DNA from: Monoraphidium neglectum | Taxonomy: Eukaryota > Chlorophyta > Chlorophyceae > Sphaeropleales > Selenastraceae | Length of the DNA stretch: 64,000 bases | Assembly: GCF_000611645.1 (NCBI RefSeq) | Contig: NW_014013614.1 | Span: 1 to 64,000 of the forward strand | Direction: 5' to 3' | Part shown: positions 2,558 through 55,035 of the stretch, piece after piece | How positions within the stretch are numbered: the first letter of the stretch is position 1 | Layout of the letters: each line of letters opens with the position of its first letter | Position numbers and translations under genes: made by a program | The notes under the pieces: model-generated | The model's input: only the letters and a program-made list of their open reading frames with translations | What the model was told of the DNA's origin: nothing | The model's database searches: none

Positions 2558-5500
2558 TCAGCTCAGCGCCATGTACCTGCAGACGTGTGGGCGTCGTGGT
2601 AGAGTTTCAGGGACAGGACACGACAGGTTGGAGCGCAATGTGTGTTGAATGATGCCGCAGATGGCCTCTCCAGACCCGCCTCAGCCTGCCGCGATGCTCA
2701 ACATTGACGACAGCAATCCCACAGCTCGCTCAGCATCCCACAGGGCCCCGGCCCCTCACATCCCAGTGCCCCGGCCCCCCCGATGTACACCCCCACGACC
2801 GGCCTCACCCCTGGCCCATGGTGATTGCAGTGACCACCTTCTCGCGCAGCTCCTCATAGCTGCGATACCTCGGCAGGTCCAGCTGACGGAAGCAGGTGTG
2901 CGCTGCCGGCAGCCGCGCGGTCCTGTCGGTGCGGTCGTACATGCGGTCGACGCTGACAATGTGGAACGCCGGCTCCAGGGACGCAAAGCCCTCGACGGGC
3001 ATGCCGTCAGAGCCGCTCCAGAACTGCAGCAGCTGGCGGCGCTGTACGTCGTCAAAGGACTCCACCGCGGCCCAGAACCACTGGACCTGGTCCTCCTTGC
3101 CTGTGTAGCCGTCCTCGTACTTGCAGCTGGAGCGCAGGTCACTGATGTCGATGGCCTGTTTTCAACAGGAGCACAAGGAAGATTGAGCCGGCACAAAAAG
3201 CAGGCGCCCAGCGTCATGAGGGGTGCTGGTTGGAGCAAGCAAGCTGTCCGCGCAATGTCGCCCTGGTACGGCTGCGATTTTTTTGCATTGCCGAGGGCTC
3301 GTACGGCGGCGGCGTGCCTACCCCGCTCCGGCCAGATCCAGCTGTCGCAGCCGCACCCAAAGTCAGCCTGTCCCGATCCCCGGGGGCGCACCTGCTCCCC
3401 GCAGACCAGCAGCTGCAGCTCCAGGGGCGTGAAGCCGTACTTGTCCACCAGCTCGCGCGGCACCAGGGAGTGGAAGGCGTCGATGACGGCGCTCATCTGC
3501 GTCTCCACTGCGCCCATCAGCATCTTCTGGGCCTTCAGCAGCACGTACTCGCGCTTGTTGGCGTTGGTCACGCGCACGTGGCTGCCGCCGGGCTTGAGCG
3601 GGATGCTCGCCTCCACCTTGGTGCTGCTGTCGCCGCTGAAGGGGCTCGCACCGCTGGGCAGCGCAGGCACCTCGGGCTCGTCCTTGCCGCCGCCGCCGCG
3701 CCGCGTGTGTGTGAAGCTCCAGGCGAAGGTCTCGAATATGAGGCCGTCGATGTCAAGCTCCAGGATCTGCAGCAGCGACCTGAACTCTGTGGGGTCGAGG
3801 GCCTGCAGGTCCAGCAGGCTCAGGGGGATGCCCAGCATCAGCTTCCAGAAGGGCTCGCAGAAACGCAGGTTGAGGGAGATGGGGCCCAGCTCCTTGGCGC
3901 GCGCCGCGCTCTCGAGCAGCGCCTTGGCCATGAACATGCCCACAAAGTGGAAGCGCTTGAGGTGGCTGGGGCTGGACGACAGCGGGTTGACGTAGAGCTG
4001 GTTCGTGTTGGGACCCCCCGCCCAGAAGAGGTCCAGGCTGCCGCGCGACAGGGCTGAGCAGATGCACGAGAACCACTCGCGCGTCACGCCGCCGCTGTCC
4101 ATGCCGGCCTCGCCGATGAACGTCACCTTGAGCGGCTGCCGCCATACATTCTGGCCCTTGCCGCTGAACGTGTTGACGCTGTCCTTGAAGCAGCGGCTGC
4201 GGCGCACCTCAATCTGGAGGCGGGGAGGGCGGGCAGTGGTCCAAGTGTGGGGGGTGGCGTTTCAGTGGTGCTGTTGAGTTGAAGAGCGAAGCAGCCTGCC
4301 TGGCCGACCACTTAGTCAAAACCTGCTGCTGCTTTTGGCTCGGTGACACCGCCTTTGCTGGTCTTGTAATGTGCTTGCTCTGGCCGGCTACACGAGCGAT
4401 GCGGCACAGCACAGGTGCGAGCGTGGCAAGAGCAGCTCGGCGGTCATGGTTCCCCTGTCAGCTGCTGACCAGGCCCCTCACCTTGTGGATCGGGCCCTCC
4501 GCTGCCAGCTTGGCTGCCTCCTCGATGAACAGCCGCCGCCGCACCTTGAAGTCCTGGCGCACCCAGCGCCGCCCCCCGCTGCCGCCGGGGATGGAGCCGG
4601 GAGCCGCCAGGGGCACCAGCAGCAGCTCCTCCACCGCCTCCCAAGACACTGCCGCAGCGCCCAGTGCAGCCAGCCGCGTTTTGAGCGCGGCCAGCGCAGG
4701 CAGCACGTCACGCTCCAGGCTCGTGCCAAAAATGCCACCATCGGCCTGGCTGCTGCCAATGCTGCCGCTGCCCTTGCTGCCCGTGCCCCCTGCCGCGCCG
4801 CCGCTGACGCTCTCCGCGCAGCGCAGCGCCATGCGTGCCATGTCCTCGCCGATAGACACCACCTCCTGCCCTGCTGCTGGCGTGCGGGGCACGAGGTTGA
4901 ACAGCGTGCCCGCGCGCAGGGCCTGCCGCACTGTCCCCAGCAGGCCGGTGGGCTGCTGCTCCGTCAGCAGCTGCAGCAGGACAACCGCAAAGCCGTACAG
5001 CGGGTCAAACACTGCCGCGCCGCCGCACTCTGCCCCTGCTTCACTGGTGCCGGCCCGCGGGCCGGTTCTCGCGCCGCTGCCAAACATTTGGGAGGGGTGG
5101 ATGTAGGGCATCAGCTGCTCCTGCGCCTCGCAGATGCGCGCGCCCATTGGTGCCAAGCCCAGGCTGAACTCGAGCTGCGCCAGCATGGCTGGCACCAGGC
5201 TGAGCTTGGCGGCGCCGCTGCCAGCCGCCAGCTGCATGGCCGACGGCGCGACCATATGCGCCACTGCCAGGGGCGACAGCGGCGCTGCGAGCGCGGGGCT
5301 GTCGCAGGCAAGTGCACCGTCGTCCAGGCCCGCGCAGGGCGCAAGACGCTGCACCGTCTGCAAGTAGGCGAGCGCGGCGCCGGCGTCCGCTGCTATGGCC
5401 ACTGCGTGCTGCCACGACAGCAAGCCGCGATCGAGGCGCGCTGCCAGGCTGGTGTCGCCGTGGCGCTCCTCCACCACCCACAGCGTGCACCCGCCCTCCA

Positions 5501-8308
5501 ACAATCGGTCCTCAGCGCCGCCGCCACCGTCGCTGCCGTTTCCGCCTTCACCGCTGCTGTCATCCCCGCCGCTGTCCTCATCCATCGGCGTCGCTGCGTC
5601 GTCTGGCTGGATGCACGCCCCCAGGATGGCCGCCACGTTGGGGTGGGCGCAGCAGAAGCGGCTGCAGGCGCGCTGCAGCTCCAGGGCACTGACAGGCTGC
5701 GGCAGCGCGAGCCGCCACACGCGGCAGGGGGTGCCCTTGTAGGCGCCTGCAAAAACGTTGGTGTCGCCGACGCGCACCGCAGTCGATCCGCGCACAACCT
5801 TGGTCACTTCCGCCCCGCTCAGCTGCTGCACGCCCAGCGCAGCCAGCAGCTCCGCGCCGCCTGCACTGCGGTCCGGGTACACTGCGGTGCCGATCTTGCC
5901 GCCGCTGCTGAGGCTGTCTGCCGCGGCCAGCTTCTCGGCCATGGTGCCGCCACCGTTGCCGGCGACCGCCTTGCCGCCGCCACCCAGGACGGCGAGCTCA
6001 TCCTCCTCATCCACCAAGTCTCCACACTGCCCTCCACCAGCTGGGCTGCGTGCGCCGGGTTGTGGCGACCCGCGCGTGACGCGGCGGTGCGCCTTGGTGT
6101 CGCGGATGACGGCGCGCGTGTCGTCGGGCACCGAGCCGCGCCCGCCAGCCGCGCTGGCGGTGCCGCGCTGCAGCGTGGCCTCGAGCTCCGCGATGCGCGC
6201 CATGGCGCCCGCCATGCGCTGCTGCAGCTCCTGCAGCTCAAAGCTGCGCAGGTGGCCAACCTCGCCCTGCGATTGCCGCGTGGGTGGGGCCCAGCAGTGA
6301 TGCAGGTCCTGGACAACCTGTCCAGAAGCGACGACTGCCTTGGTGGTCATTCTGGCTGCCGGTCGGGACCCGCACTTGCGCGTGTGAGCGCCCCTCAATT
6401 GCTGCGAGCCGAAGTAATCACAGCCTGCCACTGCACCATCAGGCGGCTGCAAGCAGCTGCCCTCACCCTCCTCACCCCCACATTATCCTGCGCACCTTGG
6501 CCTGCTCGAGCCCCTTCCTGTGCTCCCGCGCCTTGATGCGCGAGATGGCCTCCTGCACCTCCCAGGGCGTGGGGTCCTCCAGCTCCCCAAAGTCTCCCGA
6601 CACCTTGGCCAGGACAGACCGCACAAAGTTGTGGGGGTCAGCCCCGCCGCCGCGCGTCAGCAGCAGCAGCTCCTCCTCCAGCACCACCACGGCGCGGCCG
6701 CTGGGCTTCAGCAGGCTGAGGAACGTCGGCAGGTCCTCCTCGCTGACGCTGGTGTCGCAGTACAGCGCGTCGTACTGCACGCCCTCCGTGCACTCGGGCA
6801 CCAGCACGTTGCCCAGGCTCAGCACAGCCCCCGACAACGCCTCGACCGCATTGCTGGCCGCGGCGGCCGCCGGCGTCGCAGCGGCAACAAGGTGGTTGCT
6901 GGACGGCAGCCGCTCGCGCAGGCGCCGCAGGTTGCCGCGCGCGCCCTCCAGGCGGCTGGCGACGCACTCGATGCCGTGCACCGCGCTGCCGGGGCCCACC
7001 ATCATCGCGGCCACCGCCGCTACGTAGCCGCTGCCGCAGCCAACGTCTAGGAAAGAGCGGCCGGGCGCCAAGTCAAGCGCCTCCAGCGCGGTCGCCACTA
7101 CGCTGGGCGGCGGCATGGTGAGCGTGCTGCCATCCGGCATGCGGACCGTCACTTTCTGGTCCCTGCGGAGACAGGTGCACGCGTAAGAGGCGGGAATGCG
7201 AAGGCTTGACTTTGTGACTGGTCAATGGCCCAGGGCACGGAATGGACGGGGCTGCAAGTGGCGCAAGGTCGTCGCATCTTGGCCTTTGCACCTGGAACCC
7301 AGCTCATGCATTTGCCTACCCCTCGTTCCCCCGCGCTAGGCACGCATGCGCGTCGTCGCGCTGCAGCCTGCTTGCAGAAATGCACCTGAACGCCTCGCGG
7401 TGGCGATCGCGCGGCACAAAGAGGTCTCGGGGCACCAGCAGCATCGCGGCCTCCGCGCGCGGGTTGTTGAGGTGGCCCTTGGCCTTGAGGATGTTGACCA
7501 GCTCCTCCGCGGTGTGCTCCATCTTGCCGATGGGGCCGGGCGCCAGCACCGCCGACTGGCGCGGGCTGGTGAGCGTGAGCGCGGCGTGCAGGGGCCCCTT
7601 GACGTTGGCGATGGTGCCGATGCTGTGGCCGCCGGATGAGAAGCGCAGGGTGCCCTCCTTGAGGTCTAGCGTGAGGGTGATCTCGCAGCGGCCCTCGTGG
7701 AAGGTGAACATGGGGCCCGCCTTGCCCTTGTGGCGCGCAGTGCTGCCGCGGCAGGGCTTGGCGACTGCCTGCCACTGGCTGAGGTTTGACACGTGGAAGT
7801 AGCGGCCGTTGACGTAGATGTAGCCGTAATAGTCCAGCCCGATGCCGCAGCCCTCCTGGCCGATGGAGTGGTTGAGGTCCATGCCCGCTGGCGCCACGCC
7901 CACCAAGAAGTTGGTGGATAGCCCATCTGAGGGCTGCTCCAGGCGCACCACCCAGCTGTGCACCTCGGTCTTGGAGTACTCGCGCATCCCCAGGACCGTG
8001 GCCTGGCCCAGGAAGCTGTCCAGCGCGGCGGCGGGCTTGAGCGTGGCCACGCTTCCGTCTGCGCTGATGTTGGCCCAGGGTGAGGCCCTGAGCGCGTTCC
8101 ACTTGAGGGAGAGCGCGAGGTCAAGGAACATGCTGCTGCTGTGGAGGGTGATGGAGTCCATGATGTTGTCCAGGGAGATGTAGGGCCACACCTCCTCTGC
8201 GGGGTGGGTTGTTTACGGGGAGGGGAGGCCAGGGGGAATTGGTGGGCCCAGGCGCAGGATGGGATGTTGGGTTGTTGCGGTGTGCGACAGCCAGACGTAT
8301 GCCTTGGC

Positions 8309-8354
<46 letters not shown>

Positions 8355-11300
8355 TGTGTGCGCACGTGCGCAATCGCGCGCACCAACAGTCGCACGGCAT
8401 GCACCTGGTGGTGCAATACAAATCAGATGTCACGGCCAGGCCAACCGCACTCATCCTGACAAAAATTGAAGTGCGCAGAGGGCCGTGGGCCCCCACCCTC
8501 ACCAGGGAGGCCATCTCCAGCACCCTGCAGCACGCCGTTCTTGTAAAAGGCGATGTGGCGCGACGTGGCGTCCATGTCAAGCTGCACTGTCACCAGGTCG
8601 CCCTCCGCGTACGGCTCTGCGCAGCGCGTGACCAGCTTGCCTGCCAGGGAGCATCGCATGGGGTCGCGGGGCTCAAACACAGGAGCGTGTGGGTTGCTGG
8701 TGAACAATGCCCACAGCTGGGGACTGTTGGGCCCACCAAATAATTGCACAGCCTGGCCGCCAAAAAGGAAATGCAACCCAGCCCCACAGAGTCTCTGGAC
8801 CCACCTGCGACGCGGATGGTGCCATTGGAGAGGTAGTAGGTGCGGCTCTTCATCTCCTGGGGGTCCGCGTTGAGGTCGTGGCCGCCTACTGTGACGCCAA
8901 TGAAGAGGTTGCTGTCTTCCACGTGGTTCACGTACACGTTCCAGCTGTGCTGCCCGCTCGCAACGCACAGCGTGCCCAGTACGGTGGCATAGTCGCCGCC
9001 TTCGTTGCTCATCTTGGTCACAGTGAGGCCGTCGATGACGTGCAGGTCGCGCCCAGCACGCACCTCGTCCCAGCGCAGCTCGCCTGGCAGGGTTCAAGGG
9101 ATTGGAGAAATTAGCAGAGTTGCGTGTATGAGTCAACCGGGTTGCTTGCCAGCTTGGCTGGATCCGCTCTAGGCACAACATCACTCGTGCATCTGACAGC
9201 TACATAGACACACCCGTGCTGCCCTCCCCTTCCCATGCGTGTTTCAAAATGTTCTTGCCAGCGCCACCTCCTACCCCCCAGCTCACCCGTATACTCCCCC
9301 ATGTTGAGCACAGTGGGGCGGTTCTGGATGGTCACCTTGCTCTCCTCGCTGGCCAGCGTGACCGCCGCCACCAGGGGCCCAGTGACGCCCGTGAAAGCCT
9401 CCCCCAAGTGGACGCCGTTACGGCTGAAGCGCAGTGTGCCGCGCCCAAGATCCATGCCCACCGTCAGAACATCGCCGTTTTTGAATGCCGCTGTGGGGCA
9501 AGTAGGCAAGCATCATGGGGCGCGTCAGCTGGGAGGCTTCTAAACGCCGTGGTTACCTTTGCCAGCGGACTCCAGCAGTTCGTTGGGTGCCCTCTGCAGA
9601 TACGCCACCCCCAGCAGTGCTGAGCGCGGCCCCTGACAACGAGGCCACATACCCTGCCACAGGGCCCCCCACGCCCCGCCACACCCTCACATGTGAACTC
9701 CTCCTCGCGGCCGCCAAAGCGGCGATCGCCGTCGCTGTGCAGCGCCCAGCCGCAGCCAGCGTCGCCGACGCATTTGGCCGTGTCCATGGTGGGCGCCGCG
9801 ACGCCGACCCAGATGCCGTCTGGCCCGAGGCTGTCCAGGATGACGTGGAACTCGTGGCAGCCGCGGTCCGCGTACAGGATGGTGCCCGTCACAGTGGAGG
9901 CGGCCGCGCTGCTGCTCTTGGTGGCCGTGAGGCAGTTGGAGGACAGCTCCAGGTCAGCGCCGCGGCCCACGGTGTCCCACTCCATGTCCGCGAGGGTGCG
10001 CGGCGTGCGGTTGAGCGGCAGCGTGTAGGAGCCTGCAGGGGCAAGGAGGGGCACATGGCGCGGTAGAATGTGGGGCCCACCTGGAGGGATGAGCCCTGGG
10101 TCCATTAGGCCCGTGCGTTGCAGAGGCTGTACGCCAGGAAAAGGGTCCCCGCTTGTTCATGACGGTGCCAACCTTGTCGCTCGTGAGCTCTCGCTTCCTC
10201 AGCCTCCCCAACGCTCACACCGCTCACCCAGCAGTGTGATCTGGTCCAGCTCACTGTCCATCGACACAAAGGGGTAGAGCCGGCCACGGATGCCGCGCGC
10301 TCGGCCCTGTTCGATGCCATTGCGCAAGAACACAATCTCGCCCTGCCCAGGGTTACGGAGCGCAAGCAGGAGGCGTGGAGGTTGGGGTGGAAGGCGCAAA
10401 GTTTGGAGGCGTAAAAGCTAAAGCCAAGAATTTTGCTACTTACAATAGCTTCCGGGACCACAAAGTGTTGCAAGACATGATACTGGTGCAGCCATTAGCC
10501 AAACACAAAACCCCGCTGCCATTGATGTTCAGCCCGAATCCCCCAAACCCCCAAAACACCAAAGCTGGCCGCAGATGTCAGCGCCTCCCGGACAGCGCCC
10601 ACCTGGTCTGCGTCCAGCACGACACCCACGATGTCGCCCTTTGTGAAGTTGGCATTGCTGGTTGCCACGCGCCGGCCGCCCACGCGGATGACGCCGTTGC
10701 TGAGGTAGTAGGTGCGGTCACGCAGGTCCTGGGGGCGTTTCAAGGTACATCCAGGTGCGGAGGGTCGAGCTTGAGATGCAGCCACTTGTGGGGCAAAGGA
10801 AGAGTCATCATGGAGGCCATGATCACCGACGCCCCGCATGTCTCGCTTGCCATCTCAGCCACGCAAGCTTTACGCGCCCTTCATGCATCGCCCCGCTCCC
10901 AACATCGCCCTGTGTCCTGTGGTCCCCACGCACCTGCGGGTCCTGGTCCAGCGGCATGCACCCCCTGCAGACGCCGATGAAGATGCTGTCCGGCTCGCTG
11001 AGGTGGTTGACCTTGACCAGCCACAGGTGCACCCCCGAGATGAAGCCCTGGTTGGCCAGCACCGTGGAGTAGTCGCCAAACACCTCAGACACCTTCTGCA
11101 CCGAGCGCCCGCTGATGCGCAGGTCGCCGCTGCAGGCCTCCGCATTCCACTCCAGGTCAAGCTGCTGCAGCTTGGTGATGTTGACCAGCCCCGCCTGCAG
11201 GTGCTGGTTGGCTCCCTGCAGGAAGGCCAGCGCGGGCGAGATGGGCGCCACCAGCCCGGTAAACGCGCTGCCCAGCAGGTGGCCGTTGCGGAAGAATTTG

Positions 11301-12976
11301 GCGTAGCCGCCGATCAGGTCCAGGTCCACCGTGATGCAGCAGTGGTTGCTGCTGCTCTCGACCACCTGAACGCAGCCGTCATGCGGCGGCGGTGCGCTTG
11401 AGGCCGCCGTGACCCCGGCGCTGCCCGGCAGCTTCACCCACACGCCCCACTTGCCGCGGGGCACGTCAGCGACGGCATCGGTGGCGCTCGCTGCAGGTGC
11501 TGCAGCCGCCTGCGCACCAAACGGCAAAATTGGTGACTGAGCCACAGCAGCGGCTGCAGCTGCAGCCGCTGCCGCAGCTGGGACGGCCGCTGTGCCGCTG
11601 CCACCGCCGCCACCGCCGCTGGCTGCTGAGGGGGATGCGCCCGGGGCCGCCTGCTGCTGCGCCGCGCCAAGAGCGCGACCCGCGAGCGCCTGTGGCAGCG
11701 ATGCAGCCAGGATGCTGCTGCTGGGCGCCTGGGTGTGCTCCGAGCTGACGAGGCCCACGAACACGTGGCCTGGGTGCGGCCCCATGTTGTCCAGCTGCAC
11801 CGTCCAGCGGTGGCGGCCGCCTGTGAAGGTGGTGGACCCGTGGAACTCGCCAACGCCGGCCGCGTTGGTGGCCGCGGTGGTGTTGTACTTGACGCATGTG
11901 TCGAGGTCCGCCATCTGGATGTCGGCGGTGGCGCTGGTGGGCGAGTACCACGTGAACAGCGGGCTGGGCGTGAGCGCCTCGTGCAGCGACACCACCATGC
12001 CGGGCTGCGCCGTGATGAAGGGGTACATCTGCAGCGCCGCAATGCTCGCGCACGGCAGCGCCGCGCGCATCAGCGGCGTGTCATTGTGCGCGAGGGTCAC
12101 CATGATGACTGGCTGACCGTCCTCCTTGGGGGACAGGTCCATGGACAGGATGTCGCCGCGCGCAGGGCGCGCCACGCACGCAGTGGCGCAAATGGCATAG
12201 AGCGCCTTGCGCGACGGATTGTCCACGCTCATTGCCGTCACGGGGCTGGCCTTGTTGGGGCCGTGAGGGCCGGCCGCCGCGGCGCCAAAAGATCCCATGG
12301 GCAGGGGGCTGCTGCTGCTGGCCCTGCCACTGGCGTTTGCCGCTGTGCGCGTTGGGCTGCCTGGCACAGGCGAGGCGCTGCTCCCGCCGCCGGCACCGGC
12401 AGGGTGCACGACGACGTTGGTGTTGGCCAGCGCCGGGCAGGGCCGCAGGGCTGCCAGGCCCCAGGTCAGACTGAGGCCAGGGGCGGGAAACATGGCAGGG
12501 TGCTCTTGAAACACAAAGGCACGGTCAGCGGCGAGTGACAGCTTGGCAGTGGGGCGGCCCTACGCATGCATCAAAAAGATCATGGGCCCAGTCCAGCCTG
12601 TTGGTTGGGCTGGTCCTCTCGTTGCTCATACCCGCTTGAACGCACAAATCTACCTCTCTCCCTCCCTCAGCCTACATCGCCAAACTTGTGCGCACCTGTC
12701 GACAGGGCCGTGCTGCAGATCGTCCACGCGCAGCTTGATTGTGAGGCCGCCGCAGTAAGCCACAAACTTCATGACCTCCAGCTCCATCACGCCGTAGCAT
12801 TCCTTTGGGGCGGCACTGCGGCTGGGCTGCGTGATCTTCTGGCACTCGATCGTCAGCGCCTGGCTTGACAGCGGCCGCGACCAACCGGGGATAATGGCGG
12901 TGCTCTTGTGCACCGGGGCGGGCGGTCGTGGCGCCGCAGGCCCTCCAGCGGCTGGGGCAGGGGCGGCGGCTGCCAT
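2558..12976 (-). CDS. Giant SPRY(x5)-PCMT-like-pseudokinase-HECT E3 ubiquitin ligase
   Basis: The model has 14 phase-consistent exons: 12976-12696, 12470-10934, 10728-10603, 10342-10228, 10032-9691, 9490-9287, 9083-8805, 8640-8503, 8196-7386, 7162-6496, 6266-4482, 4213-3392, 3155-2809 and 2576-2558, about 2,490 residues. Order of domains: N-terminal region; five SPRY-type beta-sandwich modules (about 150-1220); a PCMT-like domain (about 1225-1470; SAM motif FLDVGCGSGYVAA); a short coiled segment (about 1505-1540); a TKL-like kinase fold (about 1650-1980) lacking recognisable VAVK lysine, HRD and DFG; and a C-terminal HECT domain (about 2070-2490). The HECT part has GGVTREWF and the catalytic Cys in LPAAHTCFRQLDLP near residue 2457. 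The exon at 8196-7386 contains both SPRY and the PCMT start, and the exon at 6266-4482 contains both kinase-like and HECT-start sequence, so the domains belong to one gene. The start is uncertain: the ATG at 12976 has a strong ACCATGG context, but the frame stays open upstream. Expected role: ubiquitin transfer, with SPRY modules binding substrates. Confidence 0.83.
8311..8352. repeat. (GT)21 microsatellite in an intron of the HECT gene
   Basis: An uninterrupted GT dinucleotide run lies in the intron between the exons ending at 8503 and beginning at 8196 on the minus strand, where the transcript reads (CA)n. It is followed by an imperfect GTGAGTGTGTG tail. Confidence 0.95.
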
Positions 12977-14961
12977 GGTTGCCGTGACAACCTGCCATTT
13001 GGCATGGGAAAGAAGCGCCGTCTGTCCATCGTCCTGCTGCTGAGTAGCAGGTGTGCGGCCAGCAACCGCTTGGCCAAGCCGCTGCCACTGCAGCAGCAAG
13101 GTCTTGCACATGTGAGCATTGCGCACCACCAATCCAGCGGAAGCTAGCCGCCGAAGCACCACCCACGTCAGAGACGCACCTGTGCAACTGCTGAGCTAAT
13201 TGTGCCTCCCACTGCAGCTGCTGCTGATGTCCCTGCTCGTGAATCTGTTTCCACGCCTGAAAGCAGCTGCTGTCCAGTGGACACAAACGCCGGTGAGGTC
13301 CTGTTTGCCTCTAGTTCCGTCTGCTGTCCTTCACCTCCTGCGGTGTGGGTCATGGGGGGAAAGGCTTGCCACGGCAGCATGACCACTGCCAGGTGCTGTG
13401 GACGAACACCAGCCGGGCGGTGACATTTCTGCGCCACTCATATTGCTTGTTGGCATAGCTAAAGCTTATACATAACCAATATCCAATCAAGACGTTCAAG
13501 AAAAGCGTCAGCTGCACCGTCCGGCTGGCAAGGCGCGGCTGCTCGGCCGACGGCGCACACCGCCTAGTGTGTCTTGTTTTCGCAGACGCAGAGCAGAGTG
13601 CCCGCCATTGCCACAACAAGATGTGCGCGCACCACTTGGGACCTGCTCTGACGCTGCTTCGTCAGATGGGGCTCGCCGTGTGGAGCTCCCTTGGCCCATG
13701 GATGCAGTCAACTGCATCGACAGCAGGCGCGAGCACGATGGCAGCGCAAACAGTCAACTGCGCGCCGGAGGTGCGGGCCTGCTGGCACACGGCACCGGCA
13801 CACCAGTACAGACGACACACAGAGCGAAGGTCTTCCATCGTCTCTGCAGCCAGCCAGTCTGCCTGCACGCAACACCGTTGATGGAGGCCGCACTCACCCG
13901 CGCCCACGCCGGGTCTCATCCTTGGCGTAGTCCTATGGGCAAAGTAACATGGCCACTTGCTGCTTCCACGAATCCCGCCCCGATCTGCTGCACCGCCCGT
14001 CTGCGGTGAAGGTCAAAATGTCCACCCTCGGCTGCTGTGTAGTTGTCCTGCAATTGTATGTTTAGCCTAATTCACATACACCTGTCTCACACAACGATCA
14101 CCCTTGTACTGGCCCGGACCTCTCCAACCCCCACCCGCTCCCGTCGCAGGGCTACAGCTAAAACTCCCCTCCGTGCCTGCTGTTTTCACAGGAGCTTGAT
14201 TTGATGTTTATTCGTGTCTTCTTGCTCCACACCGTACAGTCCTCTTGGGGAGGGGCCCGCCAAAAGGTTGGGTGGACGGACCACCCTGCCGGCCACCCAG
14301 CCACCTTACAGGGTGACAACTTTTGCGACTCGGCCATCCATACCCATAAAGTGCGCCTGCTACTGTAGCTGTGAATAACACTCAGATACACACATGTGCT
14401 AGATACGGCCACACAGGCAACATATCGACACCACCCTGCTGAAGCTCCGACACGCAGCCTGCACACTCATGTTTATCATAGTTGCCAAAGAATTGAGGGC
14501 TTAAGAGTTTACACTGCTGCAGATGCTAGGCCGCACAGTGAAAATCTGATTCTCTGGTGGCACATACTAGACGCGTGTATGGTGCAAGTACTGATGGGAT
14601 GCTGCAGCACCAGCAGGCAAGATGTGATGAGGTTGGCCACGCCGATTGCCCCAAGGCAAATTTGTGAGGCGAAGAGCAATGCACGGGTATGTCATACATA
14701 TGTGGATGCACGCATTTATGATAGCCTATACAACAAAAAACCTTCGAAAAGTAGGGAAAATCAAGTGGGTCGTGCATAAGCTCGCCCGCACACTCACATC
14801 TCAGGCGGATGCACGCAAAATGCACTCAGGTGGAGCAGCTTCATTGAAACATGTATTGCGATTTGAGAGCTCAGGAGGTGTTCGACCAGCGTGTTTGCAG
14901 CCCAGCCGTTGGTGACGTGCGTTGTTACGTGCAGCGTGCCAGATAGACCAGGCAGCCATGC
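12977..14961. other. Intergenic / 5' flank of the HECT gene
   Basis: The region lies between two leftward genes. The part next to 12976 may contain upstream coding or 5'UTR exons of the HECT gene: the reading frame stays open to about 13162, and a Gln-rich minus-strand frame at 13286-13179 ends in a good donor (CAG/GTGCGT). I could not join these in phase. From 13,600 to 14,960 I see no supportable gene. Confidence 0.4.
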
Positions 14962-33952: not shown

Positions 33953-35900
33953 ATGAGCGCGGCCATGGGCGCCGCAGCGCCGCAGCAGGCGCAGCGTGTG
34001 CCAGCTCCAACGCCGCAGCCTATCCTGCAGCTGCCCGAGGCGGTGGTGCACCGAATTGCGGCGGGTGAAGTGATCCAGCGTCCTGCCAGCGCACTCAAGG
34101 AGATGCTGGAGAACAGGTGGGGCCCGGCAACAAGCACACCGTGCACCTGCTCAATCAGCTGCAGCCCCTTGCGTGCAGCCGTGCTTGTGCTCGGCCAACC
34201 CTGTATGTCTCAGCCTCGCCACCTTGAATGTTGCACACCTTCAGCTCAAAATTCCCCCTGCCCTCTCTCCTTACCAACCCTCTGCGTGACAGCATCGACG
34301 CCGGGGCGACGCGGATCGCCGTGACGGTCAAGGAGGGTGGGCTGCGCCTGCTGCAGGTCGCCGACGACGGCTGCGGCGTGGCGCGCGCCGACCTGCCGTT
34401 GCTGTGCGTTCGCCACGCGACCAGCAAGCTGCGCGCCTATGAGGACCTGGAGGCCATCGCCACGCTTGGGTTCAGGGGTGAGGCCCTCGCCAGCATATCA
34501 TTCGTGGCGCACCTGAGCGCCACAACCATGACGCGTGGCGCAGCGCACGGCTGGCGCGCCTCCTACCAGGATGGCGCGCTGCTGGACCCCCCGGGCGCCA
34601 AGCCCTGTGCTGCCGTGCCCGGCACAGTGCTGACGGTGGAGGACCTCTTCTTCAACGTGCCGGCCAGGCGCAAGGCCTTCCGCGCCGGCGGCGCCGAGGA
34701 GGGCGCGCTGGTGCTGGACCTGATGCAGGTGGGGGTGCTGGCGCTGGTCTCTGACAGCGGCGAGGTTAGGGAAGGGGCGGGAACTGGTGATGTTTGTTGC
34801 ATGCGGCTGCTGGCACACGGCAAGTGGTCAACATGGTGTGCGATGAGGCGCTCGAGGGATGCGCCACGTCACCTGGCCTCCGCTCCCTTCATGTGTGCAT
34901 CATGGCGACACTCCCCGGTCCCCCGGGGCACTTGTGCCACGCACGCACCTCAATCACTCGCAGCGCTACGCCGTGTGGGCGGCCCCACGCGTTGGCTTCT
35001 CCCTGCGCCGCCAAGGCGAGGCACGCGCGGACCTGGCCACCTCTCCCGGCGCGTCGCGCCTGGACGTTATCCGCCAGCTGCACGGCCCAGACCTGGCCGG
35101 GTCGCTGCTGCCGCTTTCCGTGGCATGCGGCCAGGAACCGACAGCTGATCTCGCGCACGATGCGCCTGGCGGGCCCCACTTGCGCGTGGAAGGCTTTGCG
35201 TCGGGCCTGGCGTGGGCCGGGCGGCGTGGGACGCTCGTGCTGTTTATCAACGGGCGCTGCGTGGAGTGCGGACCGCTGAAGCGCGGTGCAGAGGCCGTCT
35301 ACGCGACGCTCGTGCCACGCGCGCCCAAACCGTGGCTATTTCTTGATGTGCGGCTGCCGCCGCGGCAGGTTGAGGTCAACGTCCATCCCACCAAGCGGGA
35401 AGTCGGCTTCCTGCATCAGGTGGGGCCGGGGGCTGGGGGCCGGGGCAGAGCGGGGCAAAAGGGCGTGGTAGGGGGATGGCGGCTAGAAGGCGCACAGCGG
35501 ATCAAGGATTTTGGGTGTAGGATTTCGGTCTCGTGAGTTTGGTGAGCTTGGATGCGGTGTGCTTAATTGGACAATCGCCCTGCTACATAGTGTTTGCTAC
35601 ACTCTCTGCCTGTTGCTGGTTTCGTCTTCTCCCGCCTGCCATTGCTTTAAGGCTCTTCCTGGCGGCTGCACAATCAACCATGTCCGTTGCATCTTTCCAG
35701 GACCTGGTGATCGATGCGATCTGTCGCCAGCTGGAGGCCACCCTGCTGGCCGCAATGAGCAGCCGTACCTTTGCCACGCATTCCACACCCGCCACCACGG
35801 CGCTGCGTCTCGCGGAGCAGCTGGTGAGTGGCGGCGGCAGCGGCAGTGGCAATGGCGGCAGCCGACAGAGTGCTCAGCAGACGCAAGGGCAGGCGAGCAC

Positions 35901-35931
<31 letters not shown>

Positions 35932-37449
35932 GCACAGCAGCAGATGCAGAAGCCGAAGCAGACTCAGCAGCAGACCATCTACAGGCCAGACAAGCTGGTG
36001 CGGGCAGACCACCGCACACGCACCATGGATGCCTTTGTGGTGCGCGGGGCGTCAGCGCCCGCGGTCAATGGAGGTTCGAAGACAGGCCAGCAAGGCGGCG
36101 GCGGCGGCGGCGGCGGTGAAGCCGACGTAGATGCTGTTGATGCAGAGGCGGATGCGAGTGCGGGGCTAGCAGGGCACACTGCATCTGCCGCTGCAAAAGC
36201 GGCTGTTGCTGTTGGCATGCCGCGCAAGCGGCGAGCCGCGGAGCGCGATCGGCTGGCCTTCAACAGCAGCATGGCAGCGGCAGTGGTGGGCAGTGGCGAT
36301 GACGGGGAAGAGCGGCAGGACGGGGTTGATGGACACCCTGACGCTGCGGAGAATTCGACAGCTGGAGCACTTGTGCAGCAGGCGCAGCAGCTACTGCCGC
36401 CCAAAGCACGCGAGCAGGGCAACCCCCCGGGCCCGCCGCCTGTGGCCGCGGCGCGCGAGCTGCTTGCAGCGCGAGAGGCGGCCTCCCCCGCGGGTCTGAC
36501 GGGCTTGGTGCGTCAGCACGTTTTCGTGGGGTTGGCTGACGAGGCTGGGGAGTGGGGCCTGCTGCAGTCTGGCACGCGGCTCTATCTCGCGGCCCTGGGT
36601 CCGCTGAGCCGGGACCTGTTCGAGCTGCAGGGACTGCGACGCTGGGGCCGCTGCCCCGCAGCAGCGCTGGCGGAGCCGCTGCCACTGGAGGGCCTGGCCG
36701 CGGCGGGGCTGGCACTGGAGGAGGCCGCTGGGAGGTGGCAGGTAAGGGTATGTTATCCATTTGTTGCCGGGGCGGGCCCCAAGCTCGAGTGGGTGAGGCC
36801 AGCCCCCCTGAATCTCAGCCCTCGCCGAGATCTTCCGCCCTTTCTTGTGCGCCCACCCTCGCAGCCCTCAGACGGTCCCATCCCCGAGCTGGCGCGCCTT
36901 GCGGCACAGGCCCTGTCCATGCGCGCCCCCGTCCTGGCCAGGCTAGGCGTGGTCGTCGATGACCAGGGGCGGCTGGCGACGCTGCCTGTGCTACTCAACG
37001 GCTACTCCCCCGACCCCTCGCGCCTGCCAGACTTGATACTGGCGCTGGTGAGAGACGTTCCCTGGGAGGAGGGTGAGGAGGCACGTGAGGTGGTGGAGGG
37101 CGTGGTGGCAGCGGTGGCGATGCTCTTCGCGCTGGCCCCGCTGGAGCGGGAAGTGGAGCGCGGTGCGAGCAGCGGCTATGGCGGAGACGGCGGGCAGTCG
37201 GCGGGTTTAGAGATGACGAGAGGGGCGGAGGCAATGCAGCTGGACGGTCCGGCGCGGGACGCCGGCCCTTGCCATGCGTCATTAGCGCCGCACCGCCGCC
37301 TGGCGGAGCGTGAATGGGTGGCACGGCACGTGGTGTTGCCGGCAATGAAGGCGCTGCTGCGGCCCAGGCCGTGCCGTGCCAATGACGGCAGCCTGCTGCT
37401 CCTGACCTCCATGGAGCGGCTATACCGCGTCTTTGAGCGGTGCGGTTGA
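33953..37449 (+). CDS. MLH1: DNA mismatch repair protein MLH1
   Basis: Five exons, 33953-34116, 34293-34728, 34964-35419, 35701-36741 and 36865-37449, join in phase for 893 residues. MLH1 pairs with PMS1/PMS2-type subunits and acts after MutS recognises a mismatch. The GHKL ATPase is intact: KEMLENSIDAGATRI (catalytic Glu and Mg-binding Asn), DDGCGV and ATLGFRGEAL. The transducer domain ends with VNVHPTKREVGFLHQ. The C-terminal dimerisation domain has LPVLLNGYSPDPSRLPDLIL, and the protein ends YRVFERCG. Canonical MLH1 ends in FERC, so there is one extra Gly. The protein is longer than usual (about 740) because the linker in exon 4 holds polyQ, polyG and Ala/Glu-rich inserts. The 123-bp intron 36742-36864 is a multiple of three and has no stop, so its retention would keep frame. 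Confidence 0.95.
35902..35940 (+). repeat. CAG repeat in MLH1 linker
   Basis: CAG repeats encode about nine consecutive Gln and further Gln in the ATPase to C-terminal domain linker of MLH1. A GGC run around 36094-36117 adds polyGly. Confidence 0.85.
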
Positions 37450-37832: not shown

Positions 37833-40800
37833 TCATTCTACTCCCCCTGCCCCCGTCGCCCAGCGGCCCCGAACCCAGCCCCCAAGGCTGCCAGCTCCAC
37901 CGCCGCTAGATGGCCGTGCTTCACCCGGCCACGCCGCCTCAAGGACTGCCGCCTGCTGCAGCGCCCAGCAGCGCCGCAATGGCGACCCGCCTCCCTCGCT
38001 GCTGGCTGCCCCGCCGGCGGACTCGTGCGCTGTGGCGCCATACGGCGCGCCTCCACAGCTGCTGAGGACATAGTCAACTTGCTGGCTGCACACGCGCCAC
38101 GCCCGGCGCTCTGCCTCTTCTTCCCACCGCTCGCGCAGCATAACCAGGGCCGCAGGGGGCAGAACGCTGTCAGGGTCAGGTGCGGGGCTGTCGTGTCCGC
38201 CGCCTACCGGCACCAGCCGCCCTGTCAGCGTGCCCAGAGGTTGCTGTGCATGGTGCGCCAGCTCCTCCTGCAGGCCCTCCAGCTCACAGCCCAGGTCCTG
38301 GCGTGGGGAGTGGGCAGGAGACGGGGGCCAACACCGTGTCAGGCCAGAAAATGGCAAACCAGGGCGTGTAGTGTTTGCGCATGTGCCCTAAAGTGAGGGG
38401 AGCGCCGCTGCAGCATTGATGGAGCCAGCAAGTCCCTTTCACGCGACAAAGACACACATAAACCACGTTTCTGCCTCTGTCCTGACTGCCTCTTAAGGGG
38501 CGGCGCCGGAGCAATCTTGCTTGCGCACCGCGGGGGCTTCTCCGTCCTCAAGCGACTGCGGCGGCGGCATCAAGCCGCCTGGAAGCGGCAGCGGCACTGG
38601 AAAGTGGGGACTGGCAGGCCCTGTCGACCGCCGTGTCGACATTCGCAGGCTGTCACAACCTCCCGCATTTCCTGCGGCGCTGCCGCTGCTCTGCCATGTC
38701 GCGCGGAGCTGCGCCACGCCGCCGCCACTCTGTCCTTGCAGTAGGGCCCCGTTGGACTCGTCACCAACATCGCCGACGCTGCACATGGGCAGCTCCTCCC
38801 CCTGCAGCATACCGCATTCGCTGTCCCCCTGGTGGCCAAACCCGCGCGCCAGGCGTTGCAGCCGCCACGACATGGCCATCAGCAGCTCGCCTCCGTCGGC
38901 AATCGAAGCTGCGTCCTGGTCCCAGCCCTCTCCCCCTGTGCTGGCGACATGGCCGGTCCCAACCGCGCTCACGCTGCCCCCGCCGTAAGACCAGGGCCGC
39001 TGCAGACGTCCGGGAGGCAGGCCGCCAGAGGCTAGCTGCGACGGCTGGCCAATGGCCGCCATAGTGCCAACCAGACGCGGTGGTGGCCTCTGGTGGTGCT
39101 GGCTCCGCTGCTGCCAGTAGCGCCTCTGCTGCTCCGTCACACTCTGCTGCGAATGGCGCTGCCACGTGTGTGCTCCATTTGGCAGCTCACCAGGATCAGG
39201 GCTCTGCCAGTTCTCCAGGTTCCACTGCTGCCGCTGCTGCTGAAGGTGCTGGTCCTCCTCCTGCAGCTGCCGCTGTCCTTCTTGCTGCAGCTGCCCCTGC
39301 TGAAGCCGCTCACCGCAATGGCGCTGCTCGCGCCTGCAGGCGTTCACACGCAGGTCCTCGCTGTGGTCCTCCCTCTGACCCTGCTCTTGTCCCTGCCACT
39401 TCTCAGGCCTGGGCAGTGTGGTTGTGCTGCTGGCTGGGTCCAGCAGGCCGACCAAGGTGTGCGGCCGCGGCAGGCTAGAGCGCAGCGCGTTCAGGGTGTC
39501 TGAACGCCTGTCACTGCCACCGCTAGCCTCTGTGCGCTGATTTGCTGCACTGAATTTTACATTGCCACTGAGCTGCGACAAGGCCACGCTTGCCATGTCT
39601 TTCTGGGTGCTGAGGCAGGCTCCAGCAAGCGGCACCGCCAGGCTGCTCGTGCTGTTTGCGGGTTCGCCCGTGGCCATTCTGCAGCGTGCCTCTGGCTCAA
39701 GCACATCCACAGCGCCGTCAATACCCTGCTGCTCAAGTACACCCAAGGGGGGGCATTTGCTGCCACAGCCGTCCCTGCTGCAGTTTCCGCTGCTGCCGTT
39801 GCCACCGCTCCCATCATCTCCGTCGGCAACCTCGTGGCTCCCATTGCTGAGCTCCTGCAGCAACCCTGTCACACGCGAATTGGCTTGCCGCACCTCTGAC
39901 AAAGCCTCCGACAGGTCGCGGCCCTGGAAGGACGATGCGTGCGAAGACAAGTGGACACGGCCCAAGTCCTGTGCGGGCAGAAGGCCGAGCGCGTCAAGAG
40001 CCTGCTCAAGGGCTGCGCCGTCAGCGTGACTCTCGGCCTCTGCGCAGCGCAAAAAACCCGCTGTCTCCACGGCAGCTACCTCGGTCGTGCCACATGCTGC
40101 TGCCTCCGCCACGGCTGCTGGCTCACCACCGCCAGCGCTGTCTGGGCCCCACCCCGACAGGAACTCGCTGGTCTGCTGTTGCCATTGAGCGCGCTGCCGC
40201 GTTGGGCGCGCGCCGTCTGCCGCCTGGACCTGCTCAAACATGCGGTCCAAAGTGTCCTGCCCCGGCCGACACCCAGCAGCCAGCGGGGACCCCCGGTGGC
40301 CGAGCGGCCCCAGGCCGCTGGCCCCTGGCAACACCTGCTGCAGCACACGTGCCACCATGCCGTGCATGGGGCTGTCCCCAGTGTGACTGCCTGCTCGCTG
40401 CGGCGAACAGCCCGCCGCGACGCCCCTGCCAGTGTCGCTGTCACCCGGTGCGCTGCCCACTTCGGTCTGGAGGGGTGGCCTGGCGTCCACCATGTCTGCT
40501 GGCGAGCCAACCACAATCTCTACACGCCCGTAGAAGTGGTGGGCCACCTCGAGCCGTGCGTCCGGCTGCAGCGCCGCGGCCGCCTCCCCGCCGTACACCG
40601 CCATTGGCTGCAGGCGGTGCAGCCAAGGCGGAGGCGGGCCCGGCGACCACTCGGCCTGCGACCCCGCGTCGATGGAACGCCGCAGGCCTGGGAGTGGCGC
40701 TGGGTCCTGGTCCTGCTTGGCGCCCGGAGAGGCATCGACCTCCTCCGCCAGCTGCTGGCGCCGCGGCGGCGGCGAGGGCGGCGCGTACACCTGCACCCCG

Positions 40801-42535
40801 AAATCAAGCAGCTCCCCCTCGAAGGGCTTGGGGCGCTGGAAGTGGCGGCCGGAGCTGACGGTCGCAGGGGCCTTGAGCGGGGCGCGGCGGGCGCGACGGA
40901 CCTTGTTGGGAGACCTGCCGCTTGCGGGTGAGCTGTGGGCTTCTGTGGCGCTGCTGCTTGGCGTCGCTAGGCACAGCACCGCTGTTCGCGCCTCAGATGC
41001 CGCGACCCTGACTGCCGCAATCTGGTCGGATCTGCAGCGCTCCAGCGCAGCCAAGAGCCGGGACCGCTGAGACGACAACGCCTCTGCTTCCCCGGAGCCT
41101 GCGGCAGGCCCCGTGCCGAGTGTTGTTGGCGCACTGGCACGCTCTGACGCCGCGGAGTCTGCGACGACAGTCATCACCAGCGCCGCCAGCGTCTGCAGCG
41201 ACTCTCGGCGCACCTGTAGGGCGCGTGGTGCATGCACGAGGTGGGATGAGGCATGATGCAAAGCGCCCTTTACGCTACCCTTCAAGGAAAAGCTTGCAGC
41301 TGGTTTGAGTAGCCGGCCAGCCACGGATCGCCCGACCTCTCCACCCCACACCTGCCATGCCTCCTTGTCAGCAGCGCCCCTGCAGCAGATAGACGCTAGG
41401 CGCCGTGCACCCTCGGCGCCCAGCTGGCCGCCGCCCACCACCACCACCCAGGTCTTGAGCGGGGCGTACGCCGCCGCGACATGCCGCGCTGCGCTGCCGC
41501 CCCACATGTGCTCCAGCGCTGCTGCAAGGCCAGCCCGCAGGGCGACCGCGACAGACGGTGAGGTGCTGGCGACGGGCGCCAAGGCGGTCAGGACTGTGCC
41601 CAAAACTGCCGAGCCCGCCGCCACACGACTCATCTCCGGGTCGCGGTACGTGGTACGCACCAGCGGCTGCAGCAGCTCCTCAAACAGCCACCGCCCCTCC
41701 TCTGCAGGACCCGTGCCACACGTCTGGCGCTCGCCGTCCCGGCAGCCAACGAGGCGGTGTGTGGCTGCCGCCAGCAACGCCGCAAGAGCTTGGGCTACGC
41801 CTGCATCCCGCCTGTGTGCAGAGAGACACGCTAGTGCCTGCAGGGTTTGGAAGGAATGCGAGCGCGCGGATGACGTGCCGCGATACGGTGGGAGTGTGCG
41901 GGTCACGGCCGAGCCGCAGTGCGCATGCCTCGAGGGTGCCACCCCCGGGGGGGGACCCTGTCGTCAAACGCTTTGCATCTGAACCCACCTGCTTGACGGC
42001 AATGGGTAGCAGGTCGACCAGCTGGCTCCTCTCTATGCTGTCTATGAGGGGCGAAACCGCCAGCTGCAACCGCAGCTGTGCAGCGCGTTTGCCACATGTA
42101 TCGATGCCTGTGCAGCATGTGGCGTGACGCAGCAGTGGTGCAACAGCAGACAGCCGCGGCAGCAGCAGCGGCGGGGGCAGCACCGGCAGCGGCGGGGGCA
42201 GCGCCGGCAGCGGCGGTGGCAGTTGCAGCGGCAACAACAAGCGCAGCAGCAGGAGCTTGAGCAGAGCACTGCCGGTCTCACCCGGCTTGCTCAAGGCATG
42301 AAGTTGCTCACATGGCATATATAACTTAAAACAGGTGCGTCAAATCCGACCTACCTCTAAGGACCTCAACCAGCGCCTGCCGCGCCTGCACTCGGTTGTT
42401 ACTTGAACAGCAGTCTGCGAGGAGGTCGCGCGCCCCCACCAGCGCGCGCTCTGCAGCATCGCTGTTCTCGAAGCTGGACAGCAAGAAGTGTAGCCGCTGA
42501 TTAAACTTCAAGGGAGACGCAGGGCTGCTTCGCAT
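37833..42535 (-). CDS. Large HEAT/ARM-like protein, resembles TORTIFOLIA1/SPIRAL2 microtubule-associated family
   Basis: Exons: 42535-~42355, ~42306-41989, 41837-38529 and 38297-37833; about 1,400 residues. Junctions 2/3 and 3/4 are in phase; the junction 1/2 cannot be fixed by eye. The first ~450 residues are Ala/Leu-rich amphipathic helices in repeat order, ending with RLLAALERCRSDQIAAVRVA, which resembles the last HEAT units of plant TORTIFOLIA1 (cluster before a K/R-rich linker, here NKVRRARRAPLKAP). The centre is a long disordered region, with Gln-rich and Ser/Gly-rich blocks. The last exon (DLGCELEGLQEELAHH and on) is predicted coiled coil, also as in TORTIFOLIA1, whose members bind cortical microtubules. 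No residue-level signature proves the family, so this is a resemblance call. A Leu/Pro-coding minisatellite lies in exon 2. Confidence 0.5.
42153..42233. repeat. GC-rich minisatellite in exon 2 of the HEAT-like gene
   Basis: About three imperfect copies of a 24-base unit built on GGCAGCGGCGGGGGCAGC follow a CAG-rich lead-in. On the minus strand they encode Leu-Pro-Pro-Pro-Leu-Pro type repeats. Confidence 0.8.
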
Positions 42536-44270: not shown

Positions 44271-45565
44271 ATGAAGTTTGGGCGTGTTCTCCGCGACTCT
44301 GCCGATTGCTCCCCGGACCTGCCCGAGCTGAGGGCGCTGTTTGACGCCTACAAGCAGCTCAAGAAGCAGGTCAAGGCCATCCCTGTGGTTGGGGCCGCCT
44401 CAACCACGCTGGCCGCAGAACAGCTGGCATTCGGGGCGTCCTTGGGCGGTGTGGTGGCGCGTCTGAACGACATGTGGCTTGAAAAGGAGGAGACCAGCGT
44501 GATACGCGTCGAGGCGCTCGAGGCTGCGCTTGCGGGTGCGGGGCGTGACGTGGCGCGTCTGGACGCGCTGCGGCGTGAGCTGACCGATTTTCACGGGGAG
44601 GTGCTGCTGCTGGTGCACTGGAGCATCCTGGCCTACACCGCCACGGTCAAGCTGCTAAAGAAGCACCACAAGCGCACCGGCCTGCTGCTCAACGCGCCCC
44701 TCGGGAACCTGCTGTCACAGCCCTTTTGCTCAACAGAGGTGGGCGCAATGGGTGGGACAGAGGGAGTGACGTGTGGAGCCAAGGCGGCGCTTTGCATAGA
44801 TGGTTGGCTGTGTGATGCAGCTCCATGGCTTGCGGACCTGCACTGAGGGGCCGCAACAACTGGGCCAGTAAAAACACAATATCATCCTCGCCCCCTCGGG
44901 CGAGCACACCACCGCCACAGCCCACTGTCGCCATCGCTGTGCTCACCTCACCTGCACCAGATGATGACGGATATTGCGCACCGCGTTGAAGCTGACATTG
45001 TTGCGCTGTGCCAACGCCTCCGAGCGTGCGGCAGAAGGAGCGCTGCTGTTGGGGCCCAAGGCGTCGGCGGCAGCGAAGATGCAGCTGTTGTCGGGGTGGG
45101 CTCAGCCGCCGGGCTGTGGCCTCTGGAGCTGAATGCCGCGCCGTTGGAGCCTTTGTGTGGACCAGCACCCCAGATGTCAATCAGCGGCCTCAACCTGTCG
45201 TCATGGCGAGCTGCTCCCACGGTCAGCGCCAGAACTCGTGAGGAGGCTGGTGCTGAGGGGGGGGCAGGTGACCAGCATGGCGCTGTTGGCGCTGTGGACG
45301 GCAGCAACGCTCGGGGTCGCGTGAGCGTGGCAGGGGGTGCAGCGGCTGCACGGCTGGTTGTGCACCACCAGGCATGGCAGAAGCAAGGGATGCTGGAAAC
45401 ACAAGGGCACTTCATAAGCCAGCAGGGTCAGACCCAGCAGCCGCAAGAGGAGGGTAGTGGCGGCGAGCTTGAGGCGCAGCAACCTCATCAACCACAGCGA
45501 GGTGCACCATTGCAGCAGCAGCAGCAGCAGCAGCAGCAGCGGCAGCAGCAGCAGCAGCAGCCGCT

Positions 45566-45625
<60 letters not shown>

Positions 45626-46085
45626 GCAGCAGCCGCAGCAGCAGCCGCAGCAGCAGCAGCCGCAGCCGCGGCCGCAGCAGCAACCCCAACGCTGCCATGC
45701 ACAGGTGCTGCAGCGTGGCGCAGCAGCGGGGCTGTTCCTGGCGCCGCAAGGGTCATTCTCAAACAGGGGCCTTGACAGCGACGCAAAGGTTGCAGGGCCC
45801 GCGTCTGGTGCCTCGCTACGGCCGGCCAAGCGCTCGCGTTCGAGCGAAGATGGCCTCTGTGACGCTGAATTGTGGCTCAGCCACCAGGCGCCCGTTGAGT
45901 TGGAGGCAGGCGGGCCCCAGGTGGCCCTGCGGCAGCCGGCCCCTGGTGCCATTTTGCGGCAGGCCCAGGTGGCGCTGCGCACGTGGGAGCATCTTTTGAC
46001 GTCAGCATCCACGCCATCCACTGTGATGGCGCACCCCACAGCAGCCAGCACGCCCACCAACACCACCCAGTCGTCTGCTGTGTGA
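44271..46085 (+). CDS. SPX-domain protein with long polyglutamine tail
   Basis: Two exons, 44271-44738 and 44961-46085, give 530 residues. Residues 1 to about 175 form a stand-alone SPX domain: start MKFGRVLRDSADCSPDLPEL, the helix IRVEALEAALAGAG, and the late helix TVKLLKKHHKRTGLLLNAPL, whose lysines correspond to the inositol-pyrophosphate-binding patch of SPX domains. The fold resumes across the intron (CSTE/MMTDIAHRVEADIV). SPX domains sense phosphate status through inositol pyrophosphates. No EXS, RING, MFS or VTC domain follows; instead there is a low-complexity Gln/Ala region with a CAG-coded run (about 341-395) and a short Lys/Arg patch (RPAKRSRSSED) that could be a nuclear signal. 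Plant stand-alone SPX proteins restrain PHR transcription factors; a similar role is inference. Confidence 0.85.
45513..45660 (+). repeat. Long CAG/CCGCAG repeat coding for polyQ
   Basis: About 148 bases of mostly CAG, with CGG and CCG interruptions, encode a Gln-rich run of nearly 50 residues with scattered Pro and Arg in the SPX protein. It is the longest trinucleotide tract in the window. Confidence 0.92.
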
Positions 46086-54655: not shown

Positions 54656-54977
54656 ATGGCGACCACGGGCGAGGGCGACGTGGCGCTGAGCATCGAGGAG
54701 ACCAACAAGCTGCGGGCCTCCCTGGGCCTGAAGCCGCTGTCACTCGAGCCGCCCAAGCAGCAGCAGCGCGCCGAGCGCAAGGCGCCCGCCGAGGAGCTCA
54801 AGCCCGACGCCGATGCCATCCGCGCAAAGCTGGCAGAGTGAGAAGCCAAATGCGGGGCCAGGCGCGGCGAGGGCTGGGCATAGGTGCCCTGTCAAGGCGG
54901 GAGCAGGGTCAGCAATACTTGCCATCGCACTAATGCATGGCTGCTGCCGCTGCTGCTGCTGCTGCCGCCGCCGCCGC

Positions 54978-55035
<58 letters not shown>

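Follow-up and report, generated by a model that had tools for sequence, protein, structure and literature searches.

A Monoraphidium neglectum gene that joins SPRY repeats, a PCMT-like domain, a putative pseudokinase and a HECT domain

PCMTD1 and PCMTD2 are reportedly substrate receptors of CUL5-RING ubiquitin ligases, a role said to have been described by Warmack in 2022. These proteins illustrate that the PCMT fold can serve an animal ubiquitin ligase. Here we describe a gene from the green alga Monoraphidium neglectum in which the same fold is part of a predicted ubiquitin ligase chain. It is located on the minus strand of contig NW_014013614.1 (GCF_000611645.1), within an analysed stretch of 64,000 nucleotides (the window), and joins SPRY repeats, a PCMT-like domain, a putative pseudokinase and a HECT domain. 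The architecture is real and conserved, and was found described nowhere in the literature searched.

In its excerpted text, one report states that PCMTD1 binds S-adenosylmethionine (AdoMet) as well as CUL5/ELOB/ELOC, without apparent isoaspartyl activity, and that, in T cells, PCMTD2 serves CUL5 as a substrate receptor (PMC10798966). Excerpts of a second paper mention one study that failed to detect isoaspartyl activity of PCMTD1, and a putative fly orthologue of CARNMT1 that acts as an AdoMet sensor (PMC11514484). PDB entry 9oma is, by its title, a PCMTD1-CUL5 complex. For plants, the excerpted part of a HECT survey assigns armadillo, IQ, UBA or ubiquitin domains to the subfamilies other than IV (PMC3712016), and the words SPRY and methyltransferase are absent from that text. 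In the open-licence literature, we did not find a description of HECT combined with PCMT and SPRY, with isoaspartyl function in Chlamydomonas, or with a pseudokinase and SPRY in an alga; the papers closest to the subject deal, judging by their titles, with U-box, tomato HECT and CTLH ligases. According to an earlier assessment of the window made from its letters (the sequence-only reading), this domain order is not known to have been described experimentally.

One gene, 16 exons and 13 relatives

The sequence-only reading had proposed 14 phase-consistent exons, and this could be confirmed. Their splicing on the minus strand leaves GT-AG introns throughout, with consistent phases, and joins 7,473 nucleotides into one open frame of 2,490 residues with no internal stop. 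GC content at third codon positions is 0.88 in this coding sequence, compared to 0.62 for the whole window, and the introns total 2,946 bases. The proposed N-terminus at position 12976, however, was not borne out. We dropped it in favour of position 13699 because 6 of the 13 relatives described below show an MGQG or MGQV start. An upstream route (13699-13633, 13337-13180 and 12991-12696) connects the start MGQGSSTRR in phase to the former exon 1. The extended gene (2558..13699, minus strand) has 16 exons and codes for 2,570 residues; its introns are GT-AG and in phase, and junctions 3 to 15 match the relatives.

The two exons that had been missed are exon 1 (13633..13699), for which the 3' end is unsure, and exon 2 (13180..13337), a poorly conserved low-complexity linker which is in phase and flanked by GT-AG. 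Exon 3 (12696..12991) is the former exon 1, lengthened at its 5' side in line with splicing and with the starts of relatives. Splicing defines exons 4 (10934..12470), 5 (10603..10728), 6 (10228..10342), 7 (9691..10032), 8 (9287..9490), 9 (8805..9083) and 10 (8503..8640). The intron between exons 10 and 11 contains a (TG)25 microsatellite (8311-8360).

P0005, P0007 and P0008 begin with MGQG or MGQV and have a Ser as their sixth residue. MGQG is also found within a longer annotated start in P0001-P0003; the other seven models begin elsewhere or are cut. The first nine residues of the extended model are identical to those of the Scenedesmus relative P0002. The consensus for N-myristoylation is Gly2 with Ser or Thr at position 6, and the MGQGSST start satisfies this MGxxx(S/T) pattern (Gly2, Ser6), the modification itself being predicted.

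Relatives were searched with residues 1001-2490 of the 14-exon protein as query. Among 7,978 scored candidates there were 19 matches, 13 of which (P0001-P0013) belong to this family while 6 are other HECT proteins. These 13 relatives show the same domain order. Precomputed Pfam assignments list SPRY, PCMT and HECT for 11 of them; some are partial models, P0004 being a fragment that starts inside the fifth SPRY repeat. An organism name is available for 7 of the 13: two from Tetradesmus obliquus and one each from Scenedesmus, Volvox africanus, Chlamydomonas incerta, Haematococcus lacustris and Dunaliella salina. Tetradesmus and Dunaliella belong to the Chlorophyceae, as do the other four genera, so that, among the named relatives, the fusion is so far confined to this class. 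In the databases, the named relatives are variously called hypothetical, HECT-type transferase, TOM1-like ligase or protein-L-isoaspartate O-methyltransferase.

Eleven relatives (all but P0003 and P0004) were used to check the 15 junctions of the extended model. At junctions 3 to 15, the mean identity of the flanking residues is 52-100%, and the alignment is ungapped in every covering row (8 of 8 to 11 of 11), except for junctions 7 (8 of 10) and 9 (10 of 11). Junctions 1 and 2 are both unsure, with an identity of 12-17% and ungapped alignments in 1 of 5 and 5 of 6 rows, respectively.

Two exons of the window cross domain borders, as the sequence-only reading had stated. Exon 11 (7386..8196) holds the fifth SPRY repeat, which is weak (E 0.019), together with the start of the PCMT-like domain. 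Exon 13 (4482..6266) holds a long helix, the pseudokinase region and the first helix of the HECT N-lobe, which aligns with HUWE1. Together with the 13 relatives that carry the same fusion, this confirms that a single gene codes for all parts. P0005 (2,415 residues) and P0006 (2,381 residues) each come from one contig, of 8,436 and 8,465 bases, with 1,188 and 1,319 of these bases non-coding. We infer that both are transcripts, because fewer bases lie outside the coding part than are found in the introns of the 14-exon model. P0010 and P0011 look like single long exons because they run from the third SPRY repeat into HECT and end as if into, or up to, an intron.

When the PCMT stretch of P0005 was searched against proteins of similar length, 13 of 2,867 candidates matched, and all 13 are from this family. 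The candidates yielded no further long PCMT fusion, in a search which needs shared 5-residue words and which distant fusions could escape.

The PCMT-like domain

The PCMT-like domain (residues 1314-1573; 6517..7519) starts in exon 11, and exon 12 (6496..7162) codes for its remainder. The Pfam PCMT family matches the 14-exon protein with an E-value of 6.6e-20, over the cut-off, and the domain is 62-72% identical to that of 11 relatives. The AlphaFold model of a close homologue, P0020, has the PCMT fold with a pLDDT (predicted local distance difference test) of 86. The AdoMet-binding motif I (FLDVGCGSGY, 7024..7053) is intact. Its LDVGCG core is kept in all 13 family rows that have this stretch, the model of P0008 being without it, and the Glu that follows strand beta2 is kept in 14 of 14 rows.

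The substrate loop is altered (STLTMPPPS, 7102..7128). Pro1375 (7113-7111) stands where canonical PCMT has a Ser that takes part in substrate handling. This replacement occurs in 14 of 14 family rows, which include two strains of one species. The family has MPPP, MPNP or LPPP where ISAP stands in canonical PCMT. Canonical loops read TISAP in eukaryotic PCMT1 and TISQP in bacterial relatives with a canonical loop, and the TIS(A/Q)P loop is intact in the stand-alone Volvox protein P0062, in eukaryotic PCMT1 structures and in the other PCMT of the M. neglectum genome. The Ser is also missing from the loop of some other bacterial PCMT-like proteins, such as P0079 and P0087.

A Pfam PF01135 scan of the M. 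neglectum genome gave the window exon as its sole match. With a protein query, further PCMT-like exons were found on contigs C629 and C455. The C629 locus (L012, 12604-13520) holds exons of a separate PCMT gene which is broken by the contig end and has an intact loop (NISAPHM), while the loop motif pattern was not matched at two PCMT-like loci on C455.

The sequence-only reading had assigned repair or marking of isoaspartyl damage to the PCMT part. This is not supported, given the Pro in place of Ser in every row and the separate exons with an intact loop. A receptor or AdoMet-sensing role would be more likely, because the AdoMet motif is intact. The further proposal of that reading, a protein that recognises damaged clients and sends them for degradation, is conceivable but speculative.

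When a profile of 11 family members was compared with solved structures, human PCMTD1 was the best match (E 1.2e-15, columns 4-216), followed by an archaeal PCMT (E 4.4e-13, columns 5-127). Taken one by one, all 11 members match PCMTD1 (25-60 bits) better than they match human or fly PCMT1 (7-34 bits). The tree places PCMTD1 next to the family on a long branch (92/80, not starred), and the Volvox protein next (98/97). P0062 and the bacterial PCMTs are stand-alone relatives, and the domain would most simply be derived from an algal PCMT copy.

The search for stand-alone homologues gave 68 short matches among 7,997 scored candidates; many of these matches are pieces with 46-98% identity. P0020-P0027 appear to be single exons annotated as genes, because they end at or just past AKV/ARV, where exon 12 of the window ends. 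In these relatives, a single exon apparently contains the PCMT domain; it extends from about GPIG to AK, and its borders lie at the edges of the domain. Such a single-exon domain would fit an entry by exon insertion.

The other domains and the function of the protein

Pfam finds SPRY in the 14-exon protein with an E-value of 2.9e-33 over three stretches (115 bits, cut-off 26.3). Six segments were scanned individually. Two repeats are clear on their own, SPRY2 (residues 655-757, interrupted by introns; 10256..11029; E 6.8e-10) and SPRY3 (residues 826-934; 9330..9856; E 1.9e-12). Three more are weak and under the cut-off: the partial SPRY1 (residues 548-597; 11201..11350; E 0.0086), SPRY4 (residues 994-1079; 8528..8949; E 1.7e-4), which is 86-95% identical in relatives, and SPRY5 (residues 1167-1301; 7556..7960). 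The segment scan gave no SPRY match for residues 100-330. Among the domains of the protein, conservation is highest in SPRY2 and SPRY4, with 84-95% identity to relatives.

The PCMT-like domain is followed by a long helix, possibly a coiled coil (residues 1581-1614; 6165..6266; helix 3-34 of the exon model), which is 29-50% identical to relatives, and by the pseudokinase region (residues 1721-2140; 4587..5846). In the latter, Trp1764 (5717-5715) occupies the position of the beta3 (VAIK) Lys, with Trp in 14 of 14 rows. HRD and DFG patterns are found in none of the 14 rows, the models of P0001, P0003 and P0013 being without part of the region. A profile, for which the alignment (A2) contained 8 of the 14 rows, matched integrin-linked kinase without any single stretch passing; two unrelated enzymes came lower (0.26 and 0.27). 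The pseudokinase of the sequence-only reading is retained as a candidate on the basis of the relatives and the profile, but Pfam listed no kinase family for the 14-exon protein at E<=1, and support from the fold is weak.

The HECT region (residues 2145-2570; 2561..4574) begins in exon 13 and continues with the N-lobe in exon 14 (3392..4213), the C-lobe in exon 15 (2809..3155) and the C-terminal residues and stop codon in exon 16 (2558..2576); the protein ends with GYMALS, likewise in 9 of 13 relatives. Pfam matches HECT in the 14-exon protein at an E-value of 2.2e-70 (238.2 bits, cut-off 23.9), so that the three families above their cut-offs follow one another as SPRY, PCMT and HECT. The catalytic Cys2537 (2892..2894) is part of HTCFRQLDLP, which is present with this Cys in all 11 rows that reach the motif; the other 3 of the 14 rows stop earlier. 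Identity to relatives is 69-84%. HUWE1 is the closest solved HECT structure (E 6.4e-62), in an alignment that begins in exon 13. HECT matches on five other contigs point to further HECT genes in this genome.

Our best reading, which we hold tentatively, is that the protein is a one-chain HECT E3 ligase, probably tethered to the membrane, with a PCMT-like part that acts as a receptor or sensor and not as an isoaspartyl repair enzyme. Myristoylation would hold the ligase at the membrane. The SPRY repeats would bind substrates, and so would the PCMT-like domain, perhaps only when loaded with AdoMet, in the way that PCMTD1 and PCMTD2 serve CUL5 ligases. The pseudokinase would be a scaffold or a switch, and the HECT domain would accept ubiquitin from an E2 enzyme on Cys2537 and pass it to the bound client. 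It is rather improbable that the protein is an AdoMet sensor in the strict sense: a membrane-tethered ligase that ubiquitinates clients, or itself, according to the AdoMet level, with the pseudokinase as a relay to HECT.

Several points weigh against our best reading. The loss of isoaspartyl activity is deduced from a single conserved site. PCMTD1 keeps the SAP loop, so loop loss is not the route by which PCMTD1 became inactive; as it retains the Ser yet is reported to be inactive, PCMTD1 and the algal protein would have lost activity in different ways. All 11 family members are closest to the stand-alone Volvox protein P0062 (54-94 bits), which scores above PCMTD1, and bacterial PCMTs score about equal to PCMTD1. 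PCMTD should therefore be seen as an analogue and not as a proven sister. Of the folded parts, conservation is lowest in the pseudokinase (37-50% identity), its model is poor (pLDDT 50), and matches to kinases reach a TM-score of only 0.14-0.18, normalized by the query. Finally, the domain scores 76.1 bits with the TIGR00080 equivalog model (cut-off 159.05), and we dropped this as an argument against isoaspartyl activity: P0062, which has an intact loop, is likewise under the cut-off (76.6 bits), which is exceeded by the bacterial proteins P0076 and P0082. The cut-off is unsuited to algal PCMT.

The PCMT-like and kinase-like domains might be mere spacers or interaction modules without ligand dependence, clients being picked by the SPRY repeats alone. 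This would agree with the much stronger conservation of SPRY2 and SPRY4 compared to the pseudokinase, and with the loss of catalysis suggested by the Pro, but a spacer would need neither motif I nor the Glu after beta2, and we consider it unlikely. We regard it as distinctly unlikely that an active isoaspartyl methyltransferase recognises and marks age-damaged proteins which HECT then ubiquitinates. The PCMT fold and AdoMet motif are intact, the identity to 11 relatives indicates selection, and the failed equivalog cut-off is no counter-evidence according to the Volvox control; the missing Ser in all rows and the separate PCMT exons with an intact loop argue against it. Somewhat less probable still is methylation of a different substrate, such as some other carboxylate or a small molecule, where ubiquitination would be either the outcome or an activity of its own: the AdoMet motif would permit this and an altered loop could mean an altered substrate, but positive evidence for any such substrate is absent. 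An artefact of gene modelling or assembly is hardly credible, even though splicing was deduced from one genome without RNA, because the same join occurs in 13 relatives, of which two are encoded on contigs with no room for introns like those of the window, and because two window exons cross domain borders.

Elsewhere in the window, the open frame 35521-37449 contains an Mlh1 C-terminal domain (E 7.8e-40) and represents a mismatch-repair MLH1 gene, while the open frame 55109-56500 with a SART-1 domain (E 1.2e-38) represents a splicing-factor gene. An unbroken frame of 1,156 codons on the minus strand (38493-41963) has no Pfam match at E<=0.001. Two repeat arrays perhaps code for homopolymers, one with 57 copies of GCA (45512-45682, inside the open frame 44847-46085) and one with 38 copies of GCT (54940-55054). 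There are no tRNA or Rfam matches in the window.

Comparison with known systems

The algal domain shares its fold and the AdoMet motif with canonical PCMT1/PIMT, but it is fused to an E3 ligase and has Pro in place of the loop Ser throughout the family. With ligases of the HUWE1/TOM1 and NEDD4 types, the protein has in common the HECT domain with its catalytic Cys. It differs in its N-terminal part, which consists of SPRY repeats, PCMT-like domain and pseudokinase, and for which Pfam lists no ARM, UBA, WWE, C2 or WW domain at E<=1. Plant HECT subfamilies I-VI (Marin 2013, PMC3712016) are likewise HECT proteins of the green lineage. Of the domains which the excerpted survey text names for the subfamilies other than IV, which itself has none of them, Pfam lists none (armadillo, IQ, UBA, ubiquitin) at E<=1 in the algal 14-exon protein. 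The same text lists one 'Other' HECT for C. reinhardtii, which might be an orthologue.

With PCMTD1 and PCMTD2, the algal protein shares the PCMT fold, the AdoMet site and the service to a ubiquitin ligase. PCMTD, a small protein of its own, carries a SOCS box and is recruited to a cullin-RING ligase, whereas the algal domain forms part of a HECT ligase chain, and Pfam lists no SOCS box at E<=1 in the 2,490 residues. A degenerate Pro-Pro loop in PCMTD1, like that of the algal family, was considered and dropped, as the alignment to the PDB sequence shows that HLSAPC is kept. PCMTD thus has an LSAP loop, in contrast to the MPPP, MPNP or LPPP of the algal domain. By analogy, the algal protein may be a one-chain equivalent of a PCMTD ligase. 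If the protein is indeed an AdoMet sensor, green algae would have independently evolved a counterpart of the PCMTD-CUL5 ligases, HECT-based and with all parts in one protein.

The algal fusion, with relatives in Chlamydomonas and Volvox, would add a second example of a PCMT-fold domain, here with an altered Ser loop, that is wired to ubiquitin transfer. A comparison of both cases separates what a ligase needs, such as the AdoMet pocket and the surface, from what isoaspartyl repair needs, and the fusion makes this question testable in Chlamydomonas by knockout and simple assays.

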